Positions 49,768-63,928 of a stretch of 64,000 nucleotides of DNA are shown here, piece after piece. A program made the position numbers and the translations under genes. Positions within the stretch are counted from its first letter, which is position 1, and each line of letters opens with the position of its first letter. The DNA is from Xylona heveae TC161 (lineage: Eukaryota; Ascomycota; Xylonomycetes; Xylonales; Xylonaceae), in the NCBI RefSeq assembly GCF_001619985.1, contig NW_017264199.1:1054001-1118000 (forward strand), in the 5' to 3' direction. The notes under the pieces are model-generated. The model saw only the letters and a list, made by a program, of their open reading frames with translations. It did no database searches and was not told the DNA's origin.

Positions 49768-52700
49768 TTATTCGAAGCTCCGCCTTATGCCATCAGCTGC
49801 ATGTTTGGCGAGCACCTCCAGTGTCCCCTTGCCCATCATCTCCAAAACACTTATATCAAAACGGAAGGTTTGCTTCCACCACATACGCATCTCGATAGCT
49901 ACCAGGGAGTCCATGCCGAGGTCTGCCAGGCCTAGACTAGTATTGAGCTCATCGTCGGCCTTAGAGAGCAATCTCAACACCTTCAACCCGATCTCCCGCG
50001 CCAAAATTTCCAATGCCTCGAGTGAATCCAGAATGCTAGGGTCAGTACGTGCACGATTTAGAAGCCCCTTCAACCCATCACTGCCAGAAGCCTCACTGCC
50101 GGATGCCACGCCACCTTTGCGGTTGTGATAGGCGGCCATACGCGGGTCATTTCGCCAGGGAAGGCGGTTCTTGTCACTGTCAAGGGGAATTGTCGAGTCG
50201 AAGCCCAGAAGGAAGCTGGTCCGGCTGCCTGTAGATGGAGTAGTGGCCACCAATACCCCATCGAGGACCTCTTTGCCGCCAATACAATAGAAGCCAGTAG
50301 CCTTCATCTGGCGCAGGAGGTCGTCCTTTTGAGACAAAACACCAACACCGTCTATTGGCCCGAAATTAATGACTGAAGCGGCTAGACCCTGCTGCTGACG
50401 GTAGTTACAGAAGGCATCGAGGAAGGTATTGGCTCCGGCGTAGTTGGCTTGACCCGGTTGGCCAATGATACCTGAGATGGAACTGAACATGACAAAGAAA
50501 TCCAAGGTGATTCCTGCAGCGAGAGTCGCATTGTGGAGGTTCCAGGTGCCCTCGGTCTTAGGAGCGGTAGCCGCGTCCCAATCGTTCCAGCTCATCTTGG
50601 AAAACGACTCATCGCGCAGGACCATGGACATCTGTAAGATACCCTTGATAGGAGCAGATGCCGTCTGAATAGCACGCGCCACAACATTCGGATCAGATAC
50701 ACTTCCCTGCACCAACTGAACGGCGCAGCCCATTGTGACGAGCTCATTCACAAAGGCCTTGTCCTCGGGTCCCTTGCCTGCATTACGCGACAAAAATATC
50801 ATGTTCTTTGCACCATTTTCAACCATCCAAGTGGAGACAGACCGTCCCAGGCCACCGAGGCCTCCCACCAAAAGGTAAGATGCTGAAGGATCAAATTGAG
50901 GAGTAATCTTCCTCTTGGTTGCGTTGATGGCAAATGCAACGGAACCATCCGTGTTGGATTCACGTACTTCGACAGCAATGTCACCTGTTGAGGTATCCTT
51001 GAGCTCGGCAAAGGCATCTTGAATTTGGGAGGCGTTAAAGATTTTTCTGGGCCGAATGGGACGAATCAACCCTTCGGAGTACAGTTGACAAATACCAGCG
51101 AGCAGTCTTCCAAACGTTAGCATTGCAATTATATTCCTTTAAGATATATAAGAAACTCACTGTTTCATAATCGCTGGCTTGTTCGCCTGAATGTGGCCAA
51201 TATCCACAAGACAGTAGCTGCGGTTGGCCTGAAGAGCAGGGACCTGACTTTCACTGATTTCGGCCTTTTCAGTCTCAATTACCATGCCAAACTCGGCAAC
51301 GCAAAGCCAGGATGCACGCCCCAGCTCCCCGGTGAGGGAATTTAGAACAAAATCCACGCCTTGACCGCTTGTAACTTCCAACAACGCTTCTGGAAATTTA
51401 GAATCAGAAGTCAGGAATATATGGCAGCGCGGGACATCAAAATTCTCGATCAAATGTGAAGCTTGCTGTTCGTCAGCGACGGTTGCAAAGATCTTGGCCT
51501 TGAGAGAGCAGGCAATCTGAATGGCAGCAAGGCCTATGGCACTGCCTCCAGAATGTATCAAAATTGACTGTGATTGCTTATCAGCTTAAAACTGCAAAAT
51601 GGAGCATCTGAAACAGACCTGTTCTTTGGCGAGACGCGCAAGATTGACCAAGGCGTGGAATGCAGTGGAGTAGACGATGGGCAGGATGGCACCTTCATTG
51701 AAGGTCAAGCTGTCGGGAAGCTTGATGCAAAGTGCCTCTGATTGCACAATCACAGATGCACAAGTACAGTGACCCACAACCATGACACGGTCACCAATCT
51801 GGAAATCTTGCACCTCGGGGCCTGCTCGGCGGATGATACCTGCTGCTTCTTGTCCAAAGACCAGCTCAGGAACCTCTAGGGACCCAGTAGCAATGGCGAC
51901 ATCCTGAGGTATCATATTAGCAGGTACATTAACATGCACAACAAAACTTACTCGAGAATTCAGCCCAACTGAATATACTTCGATTTCGACCTCATCACCG
52001 ACCAACGACTTAGTTGGCTTATAAGCCCAATGTAGATCTGACAATCGACCAGGCTTGTTTGTAGTCAAGATAACATGGTCATCTTCAGAAGACGTGACCA
52101 AGGCTTCTCCGAGAGAGAACGGATGGATACGAGGAACCTTGACCTCTCCTTCATGAATTATATATTCCATGTCTTTGTGTAACCTTGTGATATCATCTCT
52201 AAGCTGAAAATGCTCAAATACTTCGAGAACATGGTGATCACCAAAATTAGTATCCGTTTCGCATACAGCGAAGTCGATTCCAAGCTCGGAGCGCATTGTT
52301 CGAGCAAACCCCAATGTCTGAGCATACTGTGGGTTTTGGCAGTGAAGAGAGGTAAGAGGGGTAATCCAAAAGATACCTGCGTTGGTCACAGAGCCAAGGA
52401 AAATCTTGAGACGGGCGAAAACTTCTGCTGATAAGGTTGCAAAGAACGAACTTTCTTGATCCAGAAGAGAGATTATGTCTTTGTCAGTGGGAGGAGAGTC
52501 GTCAAGTGTACAGAAGGTGACTTCGAAGTTTCGCCTCTGAAGTTCCTCCGCCACTGATTCAGAGTTGCTTGTCGGTTCTGTGCATAGTAGGGCAACTTTC
52601 TTGACCGGCCTCTTTGATGAATCGGGTTTAGCCACAAAAGTCGCGCTGAGTTGAAATGGCTCGTCTGCATCAGGCACGGCCATAATATTGCAGAATCCAG

Positions 52701-55700
52701 ACCGATGCAGTTCCTCTTCCCACCCTTTAATGTCCAGGTAAGGCTCACAGGGCCCTCCATCGCGACCTGTAGACCACCACTTGGGCAGCAGTCCAAGAAC
52801 ATAATTGATCCATTGGGACGAAGGGCACAACTCCTGAAGTATGAGTCTGCCATCGGGGACAAGAAGGGCACGGAGGTTGTCAAAGCTCCGTGACAGGCTT
52901 TCAGTTTGGTGAACTATGTTTGTAGCAATAACAAGATCATATTGGCTTTCTGCAAACCCTTGCTGCTCCAAGTCTTTGCCGATGTCCAGAACAGAAAATT
53001 CGATGTTGGGTACACCCTTGAACTGTTCTTTGGCTGTTTGAAATGAGCTTGAGGACACATCGGAAAATGTGTATTTGGAAAAGGAGGATCCCAACGATTT
53101 CAATATTCTCGTGGTTGATACGCCCTTACCGGCTCCCAACTCAAGGACACGAAGGGTTGGACGAGTATGAGCAAGCGCAGCGAGGAGGGAAGAGTTGTTG
53201 AAATTGTCAATGAAAGCATATAACTGGCTGTGGACATCACTTTCATGCATGATATCCCATGCATCTTTCTTGCCAGAAAATACGCTGTCCACCTCAAGGT
53301 TCACGGCGAGAAGGGCGCGAGCTACAGGATCGGCTGGGGTCCCCGACAAATGTTCCACTCGCCGCTCGATTCTCTCACGAAGACTCTGGTCATCTAGAGC
53401 TCTCCAAGCCTGCGATGAAGGCTTCATCGAGCTAATTTGTAATTCCAACCAGGCCTTATATTTCTCCAAGTGAGGCACTGTGGGCTTGAAAGATGAGATG
53501 GATATCCACGAGCGCAACATGCACAGCTGAGCCAGCTCGTTCAGCGTTGACATGTACACAGCCTTATCAAAAGAGAGTTTGATCAGCTTCTGAGTATCAA
53601 TAAAGTCGATGTGAGGCTTCCACTTTAGATAAGCTGCAGCATGCAAATCCTCGCCCTGAGGAGCCTCCAGAATGTTGTGTTTTACTCCGGACATGCGCAT
53701 AACCACTTTGCTTTCTGCCAGGCAGTATCCACTGCCACGTACCGAGCCATTCCTTGTGAAGGATCCTGATCCAGTGGCAACGAGGACATTTTCCGAACTG
53801 CGCAAGATGCTCATCTGTCCCACACCCGTTGCGACATTGTTGCGATGCTTTAGGCCGATACCGTATGCGGCAGCACACACCGTCAGGTGCAAAGCAGCAT
53901 CGATAGCCACGGGATGCTGATGATACATGCCTTCGTCGCCTTGCATCTTGTTGTAGATGGTCGCAGTTGAACGGCCTGGAATCCCGGTGGTTGACGCTCG
54001 CATATCATCGAGACACTGAAAGCGCGGCCCAAAATCAAGCCCAGCGCGACGCAGAACATCATACCAGCTCGAGGCGGCAATTTTTCGAGGGAGCTCTTCA
54101 ATGACTGCACTGGATCCCAAAGACTGTTGCAAAGAGGTGACATCGCCAGCGCAATGTCTTGTCCAAACATGCCCATTGTGGGAACCGATGGTGAATTTCC
54201 ACCAATCTTTATCAACCTCATGACGCTGGAATGCTGTCACGAGCTCCACGGGAGTTCCCTCAGCAATTACGAGGGCGGTGATAGCTTCAACGTTCCGAAC
54301 AGTGAAACCCTCTTGAACACCGCTGACCTGGCGCACTGCCTCTCCAGCCATTGCTACATAGGCGGCAAAAGGGAAAACAATATCACCGCCGACCTTATGA
54401 TCCCGTACCCATGGCGCATTGTCGATGTGAAATACATTGCGCCAAACTGGTGTAAACTCAGCGCTTTCTAGGGCCCGCACGCCGAGAAGATCATGGTAGG
54501 GGTGCTGGCGATGCCGCCACTCTCGAGTGACGCGGTTTTCATGCCAATGGCTTTTCTGATGATTCCAAGGGTACTGCGGTAAACCTGGAAGAGAAACCCC
54601 TTCTGGCATCATTTTCTTGAAGTCAATTTGAATGTGTAGCGTGTATAATTTGCCAACGGCGGACAAGAACGCCTCGGTGCAGTTCTCTCCACGCACCATT
54701 GCCGCCACGTATGCTCCTGAGCTTGCATTTGCGGCCAGAATCTGGCGAAGGGGACCGGCCAGAGCTGAATGTGGGCCAACCTCTAGGAAGACAGCATTCT
54801 TTCCAACGGGATGTTCTGCAATGCGGGATACAGCACTAGAGAATAGCACTGGAGACTCTAGGTTCTTCTGCCAGTACTTGGCTCCCAATGCCTCACCCTC
54901 TCCCAGAAGCTTTCCTGTGACACTAGAGAAAAACAGCTTGGAGGGAGAGCGCCCGATCATCTTTGGTCCCACGAGGCGGTAATAATCCTCTCCAACCTCC
55001 GCCATGTGGTACGAATGATAGGCCTTCTCGACCTTGAGCAGACGTGCCAGCACTTCTGGGCGTGCTTTCTGGATTGCGGCAACAACGTCCTTGACTTTTT
55101 CAGCATCTCCAGAGAGGGTCACGCTTTTAGGTGAATTCTCGCAGGCCACATCTACTGTTGGGATCAAAAAAGGTTTCACCTCTGCCCAGCCCATTCCGAT
55201 AGCTGCCATTGCTCCTGGTCGAGATTGTTTCTTAGCAACCAGGCCGCGGTGGAAGGCAGCCGTGATGGCCTCTTGTGCTGTTAGAGCACCAGATGCATAT
55301 GCCGCTGCGATTTCACCACTCGAGTGACCGACTACTGCATTCGGCACGATTCCAATCGCTGCTAGACTATCCACGAGACCAATTTGAAGGGCCGTACAGA
55401 GAGGCTGTGACAGTTCTGCGGTGCCCAGTCGACTGGTTTTTGCGGGCTTGCGCAACTCAGCTTCGATTGTCCAATCAGGCCCTTCCTCCCCAAGCCCTTT
55501 CAAGTGCTTGTCCGATTCCTGGATGCTGGCTTTAAAAACAGGATTGGACCGCAAGAGAGCTCGTCCCATCTGTGGCCATTGAGCGCCCTGCCCAGTGAAG
55601 ACCATGATCAAGTTGGAGGGCTGAGTAGGCTTAGCTAGCGGGGCAGGTGTACCGGGCTTTTCCCGACTGGCCACCGCAAAGGATCGATGTGACAAATGCT

Positions 55701-57339
55701 GACGTCGATTGGCCAGGGTGAAGGCGAGATCCTCAATACGCTCAGGATAGCGGCTGAGGTAGGTAGTATAGTTCTCTATCACTTTTTGCAATGACTCTGG
55801 AGAGTTGGCAGAGTATAAGAGCAACTGTGGGGTGTCAGATGCTTCTTTGAGTTCAGTAGATGCATGATGGCTTGCTGCAGAGTCCAAAATTACATGGGCA
55901 TTGTTACCGCCAATGCCAAAGGAATTAACAGAAACTCTCTCCGCAGATGACTTTGGCCATGGAGTTGGCTCCACAGGAACAGTCAATTTTGCCGACTCGA
56001 AAGGGATATTTGGATTCGGCAGACCAAGCTTGATGTTCGGTGGAATGGTTCGATTCTCAAGGGCGAGAACTGCCTTGATGACGGAGGTGAGGCCGGATGC
56101 GCCCTCAGAGTGACCCAGATTAGGCTTGACGGAGCCAATGTATATTCCATTATGGCCGAACACTTTGGTAACGGCTTTGGTTTCAATCGGATCTCCAACG
56201 TAAGTTCCGGTTCCATGGCACTCCACGAATGTAGTGTCAGAGAAATCAGCAATACCTGCGATTCCGTATGCATGCCTGATCAAGGCTTCCTGGGCTTCGG
56301 CACTTGGGTATGTCATTCCAGGCGTTTTACCATCGTGATTTGTGGCTGTAGCCCTGATTACAGCCCTAACAGGATTTCCATCTCTTAGAGCATCGGCCAA
56401 AGGCTTGATGTATAAACCATTGATGGCCTCCCCACGACCATAGCCATTGGCACTGGCCGAGAAGGTTTTACAAGATCCATCCGCCGATAGGACACCCTGC
56501 TCTGACAACTTAATCGTCATACTGGGTGTCAAAATCAAACTTGTTCCACCAACAATAGCAGATGAGCAGTCACCTCGTGCAATGGCAAGACAAGCCTCAT
56601 TTAAGCTCACCAATGAGGATGAGCATGCAGTTCGGATGGTCATACTAAAACCATTAGCCTATGATACAACTCCCTAATCTTGAAATATACTCAAAGCATA
56701 CCTCGGTCCTCTTAAATCCATTTCATAGGAGACACGATTTGCAAGCGCAAAGTCACCTGAGCCTGCAACGCGATATACTCCATATTGCTGAATATCGCGA
56801 TCTAGCATTTCATTCCAATCGTCTCCAAAATTGCCCACGTACACCCCGATGCGACGCCCCTTCCACTCGGTCTCGCCGGCATCTTCAATGCATTCGCGAG
56901 CGACTTCAAGCATTAGGCGCTGCTGCGGGTCGCACCGGGCGAGTTCCATTGGTGACATAGTGAAAGAAGAGCTGTCAAACAGGCTGAGGTCATTATCAAG
57001 AAAGTACCCGTGCTGCGTCTTGGTGGAGCCTGGCTTGTCCATCGAAGAATAATAGGCGTCGACATTATAACGTGACTCTGGAATTCGCGAACGAGCATCA
57101 CCTTTGCTCAGAAGGAATTCCCACAATTGTTCAGGTGATTGAATGCTGCCAGGGAGTCGGCAGGCCATGCCACAGATTGCAATGGGCTTGAAGCTATTGT
57201 TCGTTTGGTTTTCGGAATGACCGTGGGTGATGTGGCCATTGTTACCATTAACATGCACCCCATTTTCGTAGGAACCATGGCCATTTTTGGTGTTTCCGTT
57301 GGGCTGGTTGGGGATTTTGTTTGAAGGCTGAACTGTCAT
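49768..57339 (-). CDS. Highly reducing polyketide synthase (KS-AT-DH-MT-ER-KR-ACP)
   Basis: Iterative type I HR-PKS. Five exons: 57339-56702, 56644-51952, 51903-51619, 51567-51161 and 51106-49768, 2453 aa. KS from about 51: Cys220 in TACSSS, His356 in HGTGT, His391 in PNLGHSEG. AT: Ser654 in GHSSG, later YHSYHM. DH: His962 in DHKVGGDIVFP and Asp1128 in HPVAIDAAL. MT: VLELGAGKG at about 1379-1387, likely a functional C-methyltransferase. ER: about 1660-1960, with HSGGSAIGLAA at 1877-1887. KR: GGLGGLG at 2089-2095, Ser2217 and Tyr2230. ACP: Ser2408 in GMDSL. There is no TE, so release must come from another enzyme; the divergent oxoamine synthase is the obvious candidate. The residue before TACSSS is Arg rather than the usual Asp. 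Residues 1-50 are Asn/Gly/His-rich. Confidence 0.95.
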
Positions 57340-57464
57340 AATTATCTTGAAACGAACGGCCCAAAAATTTAAAAAGACAAGACGTAAATCAAATAAAGAA
57401 TAAGAAAATTCTTTTTACAGGAAGGTCTTGGCCCATTGCCCTTTGAGTGCTGTATGTTGAAGCC

Positions 57465-57473
57465 ATATATATA
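57465..57473 (-). promoter_or_regulatory. TATA-like box of the PKS gene
   Basis: CTATATATATGG on the minus strand, about 126-134 bp upstream of the PKS start codon; correct distance and orientation for a fungal TATA element. Confidence 0.45.
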
Positions 57474-57665
57474 GTGGACCTCAAAATCTGTAAATCATGC
57501 CGATATCGCGCAATTCTTTTATGCAAGGCAATTCATTGTACGAAGGCCATCTTTGCAAGCAAGCTTCATCCCAGTACCTGTAAATGAGTATTGAAGGCAC
57601 ACAAATTCTCTGAAATCTTGCATTCATCAAGCAATGTTCCATGAGGGGCCCACCTGCAAGACCAT

Positions 57666-57736
57666 GCAGGGTTCTGATGCAGGCGTGGGTTCCGACGCCC
57701 GTGCGGGTTCCGATGTCCGTGTAGGGTTTCCGATAC
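57666..57736. repeat. Four direct repeats of a GGGTTCCGA motif, 18-19 bp apart
   Basis: The core GGGTTCCGA occurs at 57687-57695 and 57705-57713, with variants GGGTTCTGA at 57669-57677 and GGGTTTCCGA at 57724-57733. The periods are 18, 18 and 19 bp. The units also share a GTG/GCG prefix and a following YRYCC. Such spaced arrays are typical of operator sites for Zn2Cys6 regulators, but binding is inferred. Confidence 0.7.
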
Positions 57737-58252
57737 CTATCAAAGCCTTGACACTAAACGTTTGAGAAACAAAACACAGCAATGTACCAGTTTTTGTTAG
57801 CAAAGCGAATTGCTAAGCTCTTATCTTATTGTTCTGTGACCTTACAATCACAGATTCTGAGAAGATCTATGCATGAATGTAACCGTGTATAATCTGATGA
57901 AGCACTAGAATACGCATGATACCCCTTGCCTAGATCCTGAGAATTCAATGATGGCGTGACATCCGTTATTGGATGTCAAATATTGATATCAATGGTAGCC
58001 AATTTGGCTCCATCACGGAGAAGCCGAAGAGAACCCCCCTGTATTATATGTTAAATGTGTGCAAGTTGCAACGTAATCAGCGATTGCGTCTCGAGCCAAA
58101 GCCCTCTAAAAGGAGTAGGAAAGAAGAATTTAGAGGTTTTCTTTCAGAGGCAAAAGTTCAAAGAATTTTGAGATTGAAGCTCTTTCTTCGCTCTGCGCCT
58201 AAATTCTCGCAGCAATTTTACCACCTTTCTCTTTTGAATTCAAACGGCAAAC

Positions 58253-59793
58253 ATGGCAACTCCTGCACTTCTAGCCTCTTGGTTTCCTAATCACAGTGCA
58301 AAGGCTCCTAGTATGCGCAATGCTCCAGCATTCTACCGCAACCTGGAAGAAGCTCTTGATCTGCGGCGCGCCGAGCGCAGCGTCTTCATGGTGCGCAGCA
58401 ATGAGCCAGCCCCCGGGAGCATTGACTTCAGCACCTTGGACTTTCTTCATCTCTCTGCTAGTGGTGCCATTCGTGCAGCGTTCCTTGAAGAGCTAGCGAA
58501 TAATCCAAAATTCGAGCTGGGTGCAGGTGGCTCCCGTTTGCTGAACGGCAACAGTGCATACGTCGAAGCTGCAGAAGCCACAATTGCTGACTTCCACAGT
58601 GGCGAGAGCGCGCTGCTTTTCCACTCGGGATTCGAGGCCAACACAGCCATCATGGCTGCAATTCCACGCCCAGGAGATGCAATTGTTTTTGATGCATTGT
58701 GTCATGCCAGTATGCACGAGGGTATGCTTGCAAGCAAGGCACTATGCAAGCAATCTTTCAAACACAATGACGTCGAGAACTTTCGTGAAGTTTTGCTGCA
58801 GGCTCTTGAAACAGAGCCACTGATCAAACAGGGCAAACGGTCGGTACTGGTCTGTCTCGAATCGATGTATAGTATGGATGGGGACGTGGCTCCCCTACGG
58901 GAGCTCATCGAGGTCGCCAAAGAACTCTTCCCTGATGGCAATGCCCAGTTCTTAGTTGACGAGGCACATACTACAGGTGTTCTTGGACACCAGGGTCGAG
59001 GTTTCGTGAATGAGCTAGGCCTCGAGAACGAAGTTGCAATTCGCATGCATACTTACGGGAAGGCATTGGCCACAACAGGAGGTTTGTTCCTCTCTTCTGG
59101 GAATATCTGTTTCTGTTTTGCGCTGTCAGCTAAGATATTTTGGCAGCCGTTGTGGTCTCTAATCAAACCATTCGTCAAGTACTCATTAATCATGCTCGCT
59201 GCTTTATCTATTCAACCGCACCCTCTTTCCCTATGGTTGCAGCCATCAAAGCCGGATACAAACTTATGAAGACTGGCCAGACAGAAGCGGTATGATTACG
59301 TTCCCCATATAGCAGAGGCGTATGCTCACAATAAAAAAAGTTGCAAGAAAACATCCAGCGCCTGGTGAAACATTTCTTCCAAGTCATTACCGAGAATCCA
59401 GTCTGGGACGAGGCAAATGAAGAAGGTATCCTGTCTATTCCCCTTGCTGAAGACTGGGAGTCGCGTCCTTTCTTAACCCAAGTGGTGCCCGTAATGACGC
59501 GCCAGCGGTATACACTCTGGCTCTGCTATCATTTGCAACTGGCCAAGATTTCAGCTTTCCCGATCGATTATCCCGTGGTACCCAAGGGACAGGGGCGCCT
59601 ACGTGTAGTCTTCCATGCAACTAACACGGAGGCTGAAGTGGAGAAGCTTGCAGAAGCGATCTGCGAATGGGCACAGGAGATGCTTGATATTGAAGAAAGT
59701 GGGAAAGGGAGCAGTAAAATACCTAGTGCTGCCCGGCGAGTGCAGGCTCAGCAGGCGGCAGTGGAGGGAAATGGGAATGGCGTGCACGCATGA
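58253..59793 (+). CDS. Alpha-oxoamine synthase (BioF/KBL-type, PLP-dependent)
   Basis: Fold-type I PLP enzyme of the AONS/2-amino-3-ketobutyrate-CoA-ligase/serine-palmitoyltransferase family. It couples an amino acid carbanion to an acyl thioester with loss of CO2. Three exons: 58253-59081, 59147-59289 and 59341-59793, 474 aa. Visible sites are GAGGSRLLNGN (substrate loop), FHSGFEANTA, CHASMHEGM, Asp236/His239 in VDEAHTTG (cofactor ring contacts) and Schiff-base Lys270 in HTYGKA. The small domain ends RLRVVFHATNT. It lacks the N-terminal TM segments of eukaryotic SPT, so it should be soluble. It has no PTS1 tail, unlike the peroxisomal fungal BioF, and it sits beside a PKS with no TE. I therefore infer polyketide off-loading rather than biotin synthesis. 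Confidence 0.88.
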
Positions 59794-60208: not shown

Positions 60209-60983
60209 TTACATTTTCCTAGAAGAAGCTCCGCTATGAGAATAGTAGGCTTGTTCTTCTGGAAAAAGTACACATTGATTGGTGTCTATAGCCACTGGCT
60301 GTACCTTTGCCAGTTCAGGCAGGAGAAACTGTGTCTCATTAGGGCGAGAATAGAATGCTTGGTGCTCAATGCTCGGGCTGAAATCACCCCAAGTGCAGCC
60401 TGGCAAAGTAGACCAATATCCAGATTCTGCTCTGCTCCGTTCTAGTGGGGCTGCTTCAATATTCCACTTCATGTGTTTCTCCGCAAGTATATCGTTATCA
60501 TATCCGTTCGCCTTCGCACTTTGAGAGATGGAGGGCGTAGGGAAATTATCGCTACCAGGGAGGGCCTGTTTTTCAACGGGCAGAGAAGACTGCTGCAAGG
60601 AGCCATGTATTGTCGCTACCAGACTTTCCAGTGTTTCAATTCGATTGCGTAGGTCGGTAATCTGCTTTGACCTAGAAACCATTGAGGAGTCTGCCCGGTA
60701 ACAGGCCTTGATACCACCACTATCGTATGCGGCTCTTGAGCGAATGGCTTACAGTAGCTTTGTCTGATTGGGTTTTTTCCCCTTTCCAGACCATTCACAT
60801 TGATATCCTTGTCGGGCACAATTGAGACACTGTGGGCGCTCCCGGCTGCAGCGGATTTTTCTGTCTCTGCACTGCCGGCAGACTAGGAAGATTATGTGAA
60901 TTTGAATTGCCTACACAGGTTATATTGGATAGAGTACGGCAAGCCTTACCAGCATGGTCATAGAGATTCATTTGATAAACCAT
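60209..60983 (-). CDS. Short Zn2Cys6 binuclear-cluster transcription factor
   Basis: Three exons: 60983-60950, 60882-60753 and 60671-60209, 208 aa. The DNA-binding domain starts almost at the N-terminus: CRQCRDRKIRCSRERPQC then LNCARQGYQC gives C-x2-C-x6-C-x6-C-x2-C-x6-C (about residues 13-40). A basic linker follows, then a coiled coil (SKQITDLRNRIETLESLVATI, about 55-75) for dimerisation. The remaining 130 residues have no recognisable MHR domain, so the protein is far shorter than the usual 500-900 aa. A missed 3' exon is possible. It is the probable pathway regulator, given its place between the oxoamine synthase and the MFS gene. An alternative start is ATG 60971. Confidence 0.75.
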
Positions 60984-62122: not shown

Positions 62123-63928
62123 ATGTCTACAACAACAGAAGTCTTGCCGGGATCAACCCAAAAATGTTCAAATGACTTCTCTTCGGCTGAGCCAAAAACT
62201 CAGTCCCAATCTCGAACTCAAACTCAATCGGAATGTGACTGTACGGAGAAAAACGATGCGTCAAATGTTTCACCACCAAGAGATCCTGAAGCAGGACAGC
62301 AAAGACGCAAGAGAAAGCCACTCTCCTTCTTTCTTGCATTTATTGCCCTGCTGCTCATGGTCTTTCTGGTATCATTGGACGCCACTACTTTGGCCGTTGC
62401 AATTCCTGTATATCTATACACAACCCCTGAGCATTTATCATAACGTTTCCGCTTACTTTTCTCTATTTTATAGGCCATCACCAGTGATCTCTCAGGAACC
62501 ACTTTAACCGCTTTCTGGGCCAATATCTCTTTCACCCTAGCAGTCGTGGTGATTCAGCCCATCTATACCAGCTTCTCGGACATCATTGGCCGCAAGATCC
62601 CCCTTTATGCAGCATTTGCTCTCTTTGGTATTGGATCCATTGTCTTTTCTGTCGCACGAAGTATGGCAGTCCTGATCCTGGGTCGTGTGCTACAAGGGCT
62701 GGGCGGAGGCGGACTGGATGTCCTAAGTGAGGTTATTGTCGCCGACATCACCACACTGCAGGAGCGTGCCGTGTACATTGGCCTTTTGTCTCTTCCAATG
62801 GCAGCAGGATGTATCGCAGGGCCCATCCTCGGTGCAGTCTTCAGCGAGTATGTCGACTGGCGATGGATTGGCTGGATCAATCTACCTGTGATTGGAGTTG
62901 CCCTCGTGCTGGCCATCTTTTTCATGCGCCTGAGGCCCATACACCAGTCTCTCCGCGAGCAGCTCTTCCGCATCGATTGGCTGGGCATGCTGATTTTCAT
63001 GACTGGTTGTATCCTTTTTGCCTTGCCGCTAAGTTGGGCAGGAAATATGTACCCATGGGGCTCATGGCGTACCATCGTACCACTAGTGATTGGCATTCTG
63101 GTGTTAGTGGCATTTGCCCTGTACGAGTCACGACCAACGGACCCTGTCTTTCCCTATCGTATCTTTCGCTCTCGGACGGCCCAGATGACACTCCTTGGTA
63201 GCTTCATACATGGCATGGTTCTCTATACCCTGTTACAGTACCTTCCCTTGTTTTTCCAGGCTGTCTATCTCGAGACGGCACTCAAGTCCTCCATTTCAAT
63301 CCTACCATTCTGCTGTGTTGTCTTTGTCTTTACGGGTATTGCTGCCTGGGCCGTTGATTTCTTCCGGAAATACCGCTGGGAAATATGGGCAGGATGGGTT
63401 TTTCTAGCGGTGGGTGTTGGCATTTTCTCACTGTGGAATCAAAGTTCCTCTCTAGCCATGACTGCAAGCTTCCAAGTGATAGCTGGAATAGGAATTGGCA
63501 CGATCTTCAGTGTTCCTCCAATCCCGATGCAGGCCAGCGCACCAACGGCCGAAGATCAGGGTCTTGCGATGGGCATCATGGTTGCATTCCGGCTCTTCGG
63601 TGCTCTTATTGGCCTTGCAATTGGTGCTACTACATTCAGCGGCGTTTTTGCAAGCAAGATTAACTCGATCCCCTCGCTGCCCGCCTCCGTGGCATTGTTA
63701 AAAAACCCCAGCGAGGCGGTCGGTTTTATTCCACACCTACGAACAGTTGACATTTCCCCTGCCCTAAAGGACCTCATCCAAGGGGCTTACAAAGATGCTA
63801 TGCAGACAATTTGGTATGAATTAGCAGCATTTGGGGCTGTAGGATTTCTGAGTTCATTGTTGATAAAAGAACTGACTATGGAGACGGAGGAGCTCAGTCG
63901 GCAACACTTTGAGCCGGAATCGGACTGA
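62123..63928 (+). CDS. MFS drug:H+ antiporter (DHA2/14-TM type), cluster exporter
   Basis: Two exons, 62123-62407 and 62474-63928, 579 aa. The N-terminal 70 residues are hydrophilic and cytosolic. Then come TM1 (FFLAFIALLLMVFLVSLDATTLAVAIP, with the DHA2 LDxTxxxxAIP signature), TSDLSGTTLTAFW, motif A-like FSDIIGRKIPLYAA, GRVLQGLGGGGLDVLSEVI (motif B/C region) and DWRWIGWINLP, plus further hydrophobic segments consistent with 14 TMs. This is the usual self-protection or export pump of fungal metabolite clusters. The substrate is inferred to be the cluster product. The gene ends 72 bp before the window edge. Confidence 0.9.

Follow-up and report, generated by a model that had tools for sequence, protein, structure and literature searches.

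A small polyketide synthase–alpha-oxoamine synthase gene cluster of Xylona heveae in a fungal clade with a decayed enoylreductase domain and a changed synthase residue

In fungi, clusters that pair a polyketide synthase (PKS) with an alpha-oxoamine synthase (AOS) have so far been interpreted as producing sphinganine-like, sphingolipid-blocking compounds. Clusters of a PKS and an aminotransferase gene are already known, and the available part of Kim et al. (2020, PMC7376913) reports SAM-type clusters in 43 non-Fusarium species, only 26 of them with a gene for a short-chain dehydrogenase/reductase (SDR). We analyzed a 64-kb stretch, hereafter the window, of a 1.44-Mb contig (C7) of Xylona heveae TC161, class Xylonomycetes, in which a highly reducing PKS and a pyridoxal phosphate (PLP)-dependent AOS are encoded. 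The locus is a real, small PKS-AOS cluster of the described kind, and it lies in a clade with a decayed enoylreductase (ER) domain in the PKS and a changed residue in the AOS. The initial annotation, which is partly supported overall, had not recognised a described cluster here; the kind has been described in the paper cited above, whereas no description of a clade that combines ER decay with this AOS change was found in the open-licence literature.

Both genes are intact and divergent, as had been read at the outset, and the catalytic Lys270 and Asp236 of the AOS are present, aligned with K236 and D204 of Escherichia coli BioF; His239, His151, Thr267, Ser207, Glu203 and Arg412 align with H207, H133, T233, S179, E175 and R361, respectively. 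The enzyme thereby carries the residue set of an alpha-oxoamine synthase: the Schiff-base Lys (K270), the PLP Asp (D236), the stacking His (H151) and the carboxylate-binding Arg (R412). We take these to be the roles of K270, D236 and H151, and Arg412 to be the equivalent of the carboxylate-binding Arg of ThAOS. That Arg of ThAOS is described in the accessible portion of PMC11906848. The closest solved AOS is SphA, and the Xylona enzyme is a homologue of about 470 residues with the SphA fold; the earlier suggestion that a soluble AOS sets this locus apart from the sphingofungin pathway is rejected. A tree of 111 sequences (106 matches, the Xylona AOS and four references; quick method), from which P0011 was dropped because its gene model seems to be faulty, placed the Xylona AOS in a clade of 20 rows with a Shimodaira–Hasegawa-like approximate likelihood ratio (SH-aLRT) support of 99. 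This clade holds neither the SphA rows nor the organism's own BioF, ALAS and LCB2, nor E. coli BioF. The SphA rows P0076 and P0104 belong to a separate group of four rows with support 100, and the Xylona enzyme also groups apart from the organism's own LCB2. Where E. coli BioF has Asn47, the clade carries Leu in 16/20 members (Leu62 in Xylona) and Met in 4/20, neither of which occurs in any other row; outside the clade, Asn occupies this position in 68/87 fungal matches listed, the others having T (8), S (8) or C (3). Asn47 of BioF and its counterparts in ALAS and KBL help to hold the carboxylate of the amino acid. No papers on the equivalent position were found in the open-licence literature, and as to its meaning in the Xylona clade the change is a lead only.

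Linkage between genes was read from the best 120 matches of the AOS, PKS and major facilitator superfamily (MFS) exporter searches, two matches being paired when they lie on contigs of equal size; 108/120 AOS, 114/120 PKS and 83/120 MFS matches were used (the MFS number by eye), rows without a contig and nearly all those lacking a source name were left out, and the MFS row P0336 was effectively unpaired. At least 38/108 AOS matches, Xylona included, share a contig size with a PKS match, at least 17/108 with an MFS match and at least 10/108 with both, and these are lower bounds because the lists hold the best 120 matches per search. Equal contig size alone is no proof of adjacency, since some contigs span several Mb; a comparison by eye found the same organism on both sides of all 38 AOS-PKS pairs, and in some pairs the locus tags run consecutively or almost so (QQS21_006162-006164; Q9187_002067-002069; Q9217_000116-000118; GJ744_009714, 009716 and 009717).

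Pfam, run on the public PKS model P0121, detected the KS, AT, DH, MT, ER, KR and ACP domains and listed no thioesterase. The initial annotation of a complete highly reducing PKS without a thioesterase thus stands for the domain set and fails at the ER, whose motif is degenerate. Intact motifs were seen for the KS (Cys/His/His), AT (Ser), DH (His/Asp), KR (Ser/Tyr) and ACP (Ser), but not for the ER. Among 119 PKS homologs, taken from the best 120 matches, the four-residue nucleotide-binding motif of the ER reads GGVG in 98, and in Xylona it reads SAIG. Mis-splicing as the source of the odd motif was rejected, given that a single exon encodes the whole motif and that the public model is concordant. 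When domain positions conserved in the 26 AOS-linked PKSs outside the Xylona AOS clade were used as a reference, 30/83 were broken in the Xylona ER, as compared with 6/165 in KS, 1/102 in AT, 5/44 in DH, 2/19 in MT and 4/63 in KR (ER vs KS, AT, DH and KR, Fisher p 5e-14). Identity to the nearest PKS listed, that of P. glandicola, is 85% in KS/AT/KR, 79% in DH, 62% in MT and 55% in ER, and ER identities of 58% or less were found in 0/384 ER-intact PKS pairs at 75-90% core identity. PF00107 falls below its cut-off in the Xylona ER (26.9 vs 31.8 bits). The best solved match of the PKS is LovB, the ER of which lies outside the matched stretches. From its lost conserved residues the Xylona ER is probably inactive. 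The MT domain retains the motif ELGAGKG and its His; its glycine motif was counted by eye in 9/12 clade and 10/26 outside AOS-linked PKSs (Fisher p 0.08), so C-methylation is treated as a possible step.

The decay extends through the clade: among its 12 members with a linked PKS, 11 have no GGxG in the ER, whereas 26/26 linked PKSs outside the clade keep GGVG, and the fractions of broken ER positions do not overlap (23-49% vs 0-9%). When Leu was considered by itself, a 2 x 2 table gave p 0.0002 (7/8 vs 4/30), although p-values for the association of the AOS residue with the ER are optimistic because the sequences are related. Both types occur in Hypoxylon sp. FL1284, with one pair each (P0010/P0144 and P0020/P0135). 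Decayed ERs (>20% broken) are also seen in P0129, P0139, P0156, P0172 and P0184, which are PKSs without a linked AOS in the lists; P0139, P0172 and P0184 are each on a contig equal in size to that of an MFS match.

We consider it likely that the AOS releases the PKS chain by a CO2-losing condensation with a small amino acid, yielding a 2-amino-3-ketone with a chain predicted to be unsaturated, and that PKS, AOS, a Zn2Cys6 regulator and an MFS exporter together form a four-gene cluster; the release reaction is proposed by analogy with SphA. The PKS would extend the chain with ketoreduction and dehydration, for which the motifs are intact, and perhaps with C-methylation, but without enoyl reduction. 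The AOS would then form the external aldimine with the amino acid, take the chain off the ACP and lose CO2, and the MFS protein would export the product. Double bonds are predicted to remain because the ER of this PKS lacks conserved residues, which speaks against the largely reduced product proposed in the initial annotation. There is precedent in a budgerigar PKS that has an inactive ER and makes a polyene; for some members of its protein group, inactivity has been suggested from the loss of the NADPH-binding motif (both in the accessible part of PMC6334511). Genes outside the cluster would have to supply any later reduction or oxidation: no SDR gene for the 3-ketone was seen by eye in the open reading frame (ORF) lists and sequence near the cluster, and a PF00106 search, which scored 19/107 candidates, placed 0/23 matches on this contig. 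A rule based on residue 83 (available text of PMC7376913), by which Ser94 of the Xylona AOS would predict alanine, was set aside for the amino acid, since relatives of SphA share this Ser and SphA itself takes aminomalonate as the partner of its own chain. A broader and more tentative reading, which may well be wrong, is that the clade represents an unrecognised fungal PKS-AOS lineage in which ER loss and the Asn to Leu/Met change co-evolved, the AOS offloading polyenyl chains onto amino acids to give unsaturated amino-ketones or derived heterocycles instead of sphinganine mimics, with a unit of three to four genes that is mobile between fungal classes.

Several observations weigh against an unsaturated product and against a clade-wide association. 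The Xylona ER is full length, has no stops and exceeds two Pfam cut-offs (PF08240, 46.7 vs 23.5 bits; PF13602, 36.9 vs 27); given also that the last Gly of its motif is kept, a residual or altered activity is possible. Not every motif-less PKS pair has a fast-evolving ER, since ER identity has a median of 69% over 13 such pairs whose cores are 80-90% identical, as compared with 84% in 191 intact pairs. The linked clade member of Cucurbitaria keeps GGVG, though 28/83 of its conserved ER positions are broken, and 6/82 listed PKS matches without a linked AOS, that of P. glandicola among them, have more than 20% of ER positions broken. Divergence of the clade PKSs is raised in most domains (median broken positions: KS 11%, DH 12%, MT 13%, KR 16%, ER 36%; outside linked PKSs, 2% in KS and KR), and because the conserved positions were defined on the outside PKSs, only the excess in the ER counts. 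The linkage itself is based on contigs of equal size and not on gene maps. A dead ER could moreover be complemented by a reductase encoded elsewhere, following the LovB/LovC logic of a reductase that acts in trans on a PKS, so that the chain would be partly reduced. An ER that stays full length across the clade despite its decay is what a structural or docking role would leave; however, inspection by eye of the ORF lists and sequence (47-64 kb of the window and 20 kb beyond) showed no reductase gene next to the PKS, and we regard this explanation as improbable.

The full-length ER and its two passed cut-offs equally favor a working ER and a sphinganine-like, largely reduced and perhaps methyl-branched amino-ketone or amino-alcohol, as in the sphingofungin and AOD pathways, as do the same gene pair, SphA as the closest solved AOS, and P0243, named sphD, among the MFS relatives listed. 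Against it stand the broken motif and conserved positions of the ER, decay in 12/12 linked clade PKSs, the position of the Xylona AOS outside the SphA group, and an ER identity of 86% between the presumed SphBs P0190 and P0169 (A. fumigatus and P. variotii) as compared with 55% for Xylona and its nearest relative; we rank this possibility above complementation in trans, though it too is unlikely. Foremost among the alternatives, yet still unlikely, is that a polyenyl amino-ketone is an intermediate whose cyclisation gives a pyrroline, pyrrole or indolizidine, in the manner of curvulamine biosynthesis by CuaA/CuaB. CuaB is described, in the accessible part of PMC13113314, as condensing an acyl chain with alanine to a dienyl pyrrolinone, but the likeness to CuaB comes from this description and not from sequence, no oxidase gene was seen by eye in the Xylona cluster, and 0/32 scored P450 matches lie on its contig. 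Public names, finally, call the AOS an 8-amino-7-oxononanoate synthase (AONS), which would make it the biotin enzyme BioF and its place beside the PKS a coincidence. This is very improbable and was rejected: another AONS-like gene (C1:2918259; first exon 47% identical) adjoins a BioD-BioA fusion (C1:2916082-2916998), a BioB match is present in the genome, and the AOS-PKS pairing recurs in many fungi. At C1:2916082-2919246 the BioD-BioA fusion (minus strand) is divergent from the 430-aa BioF (plus strand).

Features of the locus are collected in Table 1. The interval 49768..59793 first given for the cluster proved too short, as the regulator and exporter genes adjoin it; the MFS gene lies 2.3 kb beyond, and it is a recurrent companion in other fungi. 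The roles given to the regulator and the exporter are presumed ones.

Table 1. Features of the Xylona heveae PKS-AOS locus (window coordinates)
Feature	Position	Strand	Basis
Highly reducing PKS, 2453 aa, KS-AT-DH-MT-ER-KR-ACP, no thioesterase	49768..57339	-	5-exon spliced model, Pfam, homologs
Altered ER nucleotide-binding motif codons, SAIG instead of GGVG	51532..51543	-	sequence and splice model, PKS homologs
Divergent promoter common to PKS and AOS, 913 bp	57340..58252	.	gene models
Four TCGGAACCC-like repeats, spacing 18, 18 and 20 bp, candidate regulator sites	57669..57734	-	
PLP-dependent AOS, 474 aa, exons 58253-59081, 59147-59289, 59341-59793	58253..59793	+	
Zn2Cys6 regulator, exons 60950-60971, 60753-60882, 60209-60671	60209..60971	-	spliced model, Zn_clus
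MFS exporter (SphD-like), 579 aa, intron 62408-62473	62123..63928	+	Pfam of second exon, spliced model, homologs

The PKS introns (56645-56701, 51904-51951, 51568-51618 and 51107-51160) leave a spliced frame without internal stop. Homolog and motif comparisons used a model that is three residues longer at the third acceptor, a difference that lies outside every motif. P0121, the public model, equals the 2453-aa model except that it starts 57 aa downstream (57339-57169), within the first KS residues. P0001, the public protein of Xylona heveae TC161, matches the AOS model with 100% identity. In the first 184 residues of the regulator, Zn_clus (PF00172) scores 35.9 bits vs a cut-off of 21. The MFS gene has an intact spliced frame, but no identical Xylona protein was among the 120 matches listed, and the gene may be missing or wrongly modelled in the public annotation. 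Exact copies of TCGGAACCC occur twice in the window, both within the repeat stretch of the PKS/AOS promoter; at one mismatch there is no excess over the window (10 found vs 12.8 expected), and no copies with at most one mismatch are near the regulator or MFS promoters. The flanks look ordinary: Pfam identifies a HAD-type RNA repair protein, and ORFs resembling a mitochondrial carrier and SNF2 were recognised by eye.

Among the matches listed, those closest to three of the four cluster genes come from Aspergillus and Penicillium, with 88% identity to P. hordei for the AOS and 91% over 86% of the length to a Penicillium for the MFS protein. Xylona is nested among these genera in the trees of the AOS (fork supports 98/98 and 100/99), the MFS protein and the PKS (SH-aLRT 100, quick method). 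Approximately unbiased (AU) tests, whose groups were named after the matches had been seen, rejected a grouping of the three Eurotiales without Xylona for the AOS (p 0.0007) and supported the nesting for the MFS protein (p 0.0005). Given the nesting and these identities, the simplest reading of the sequences, although different species represent the three genes, is a presumed horizontal acquisition from Eurotiales.

If the whole clade is indeed without a working ER, the default prediction of sphinganine-like products would be wrong for it, and the ER state together with one AOS residue would offer a simple genome-mining rule to separate sphingofungin-like from unsaturated products. Among the systems compared, the biotin enzyme AONS (BioF) has the PLP fold and the catalytic residues in common with the Xylona AOS, which differs by Leu in place of E. 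coli Asn47. SgaA/SgaB of Pseudomonas fluorescens MYb115 is a two-gene PKS and AOS system that makes sphinganines; SgaB, unlike the fungal Xylona enzyme, is bacterial and has predicted structural homology to SPTs (accessible part of PMC12134224). In the curvulamine pathway of Curvularia (CuaA/CuaB), a PLP enzyme joins the PKS chain to alanine, which leads to a dienyl pyrrolinone, and the pathway has further redox genes (available text of PMC13113314), a system compared here by its description. The SAM1-SAM5 and AOD clusters have the same PKS and aminotransferase gene pair as Xylona, and their PKSs have been assigned to a clade that makes linear chains with full reduction (available part of PMC7376913), whereas the Xylona ER sequence speaks against full reduction. 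The 20-row Xylona AOS clade, drawn from 106 matches, contains no Fusarium sequence. In the sphingofungin system (SphB/SphA of Aspergillus fumigatus and Paecilomyces variotii) the AOS belongs to another clade, with Asn where Xylona has Leu62, and no ketoreductase or P450 was seen at the Xylona locus. The sphingofungin chain is unbranched, in line with the loss of the MT His in the presumed SphBs. In the presumed SphB-type PKSs P0169, P0190 and P0207 the ER motif is kept (GGVG in P0190 and P0169) and the MT His is lost, only this His, as the MT glycines of the presumed SphBs are kept; the Xylona PKS, with a decayed ER and both MT motif and His retained, is their mirror image.
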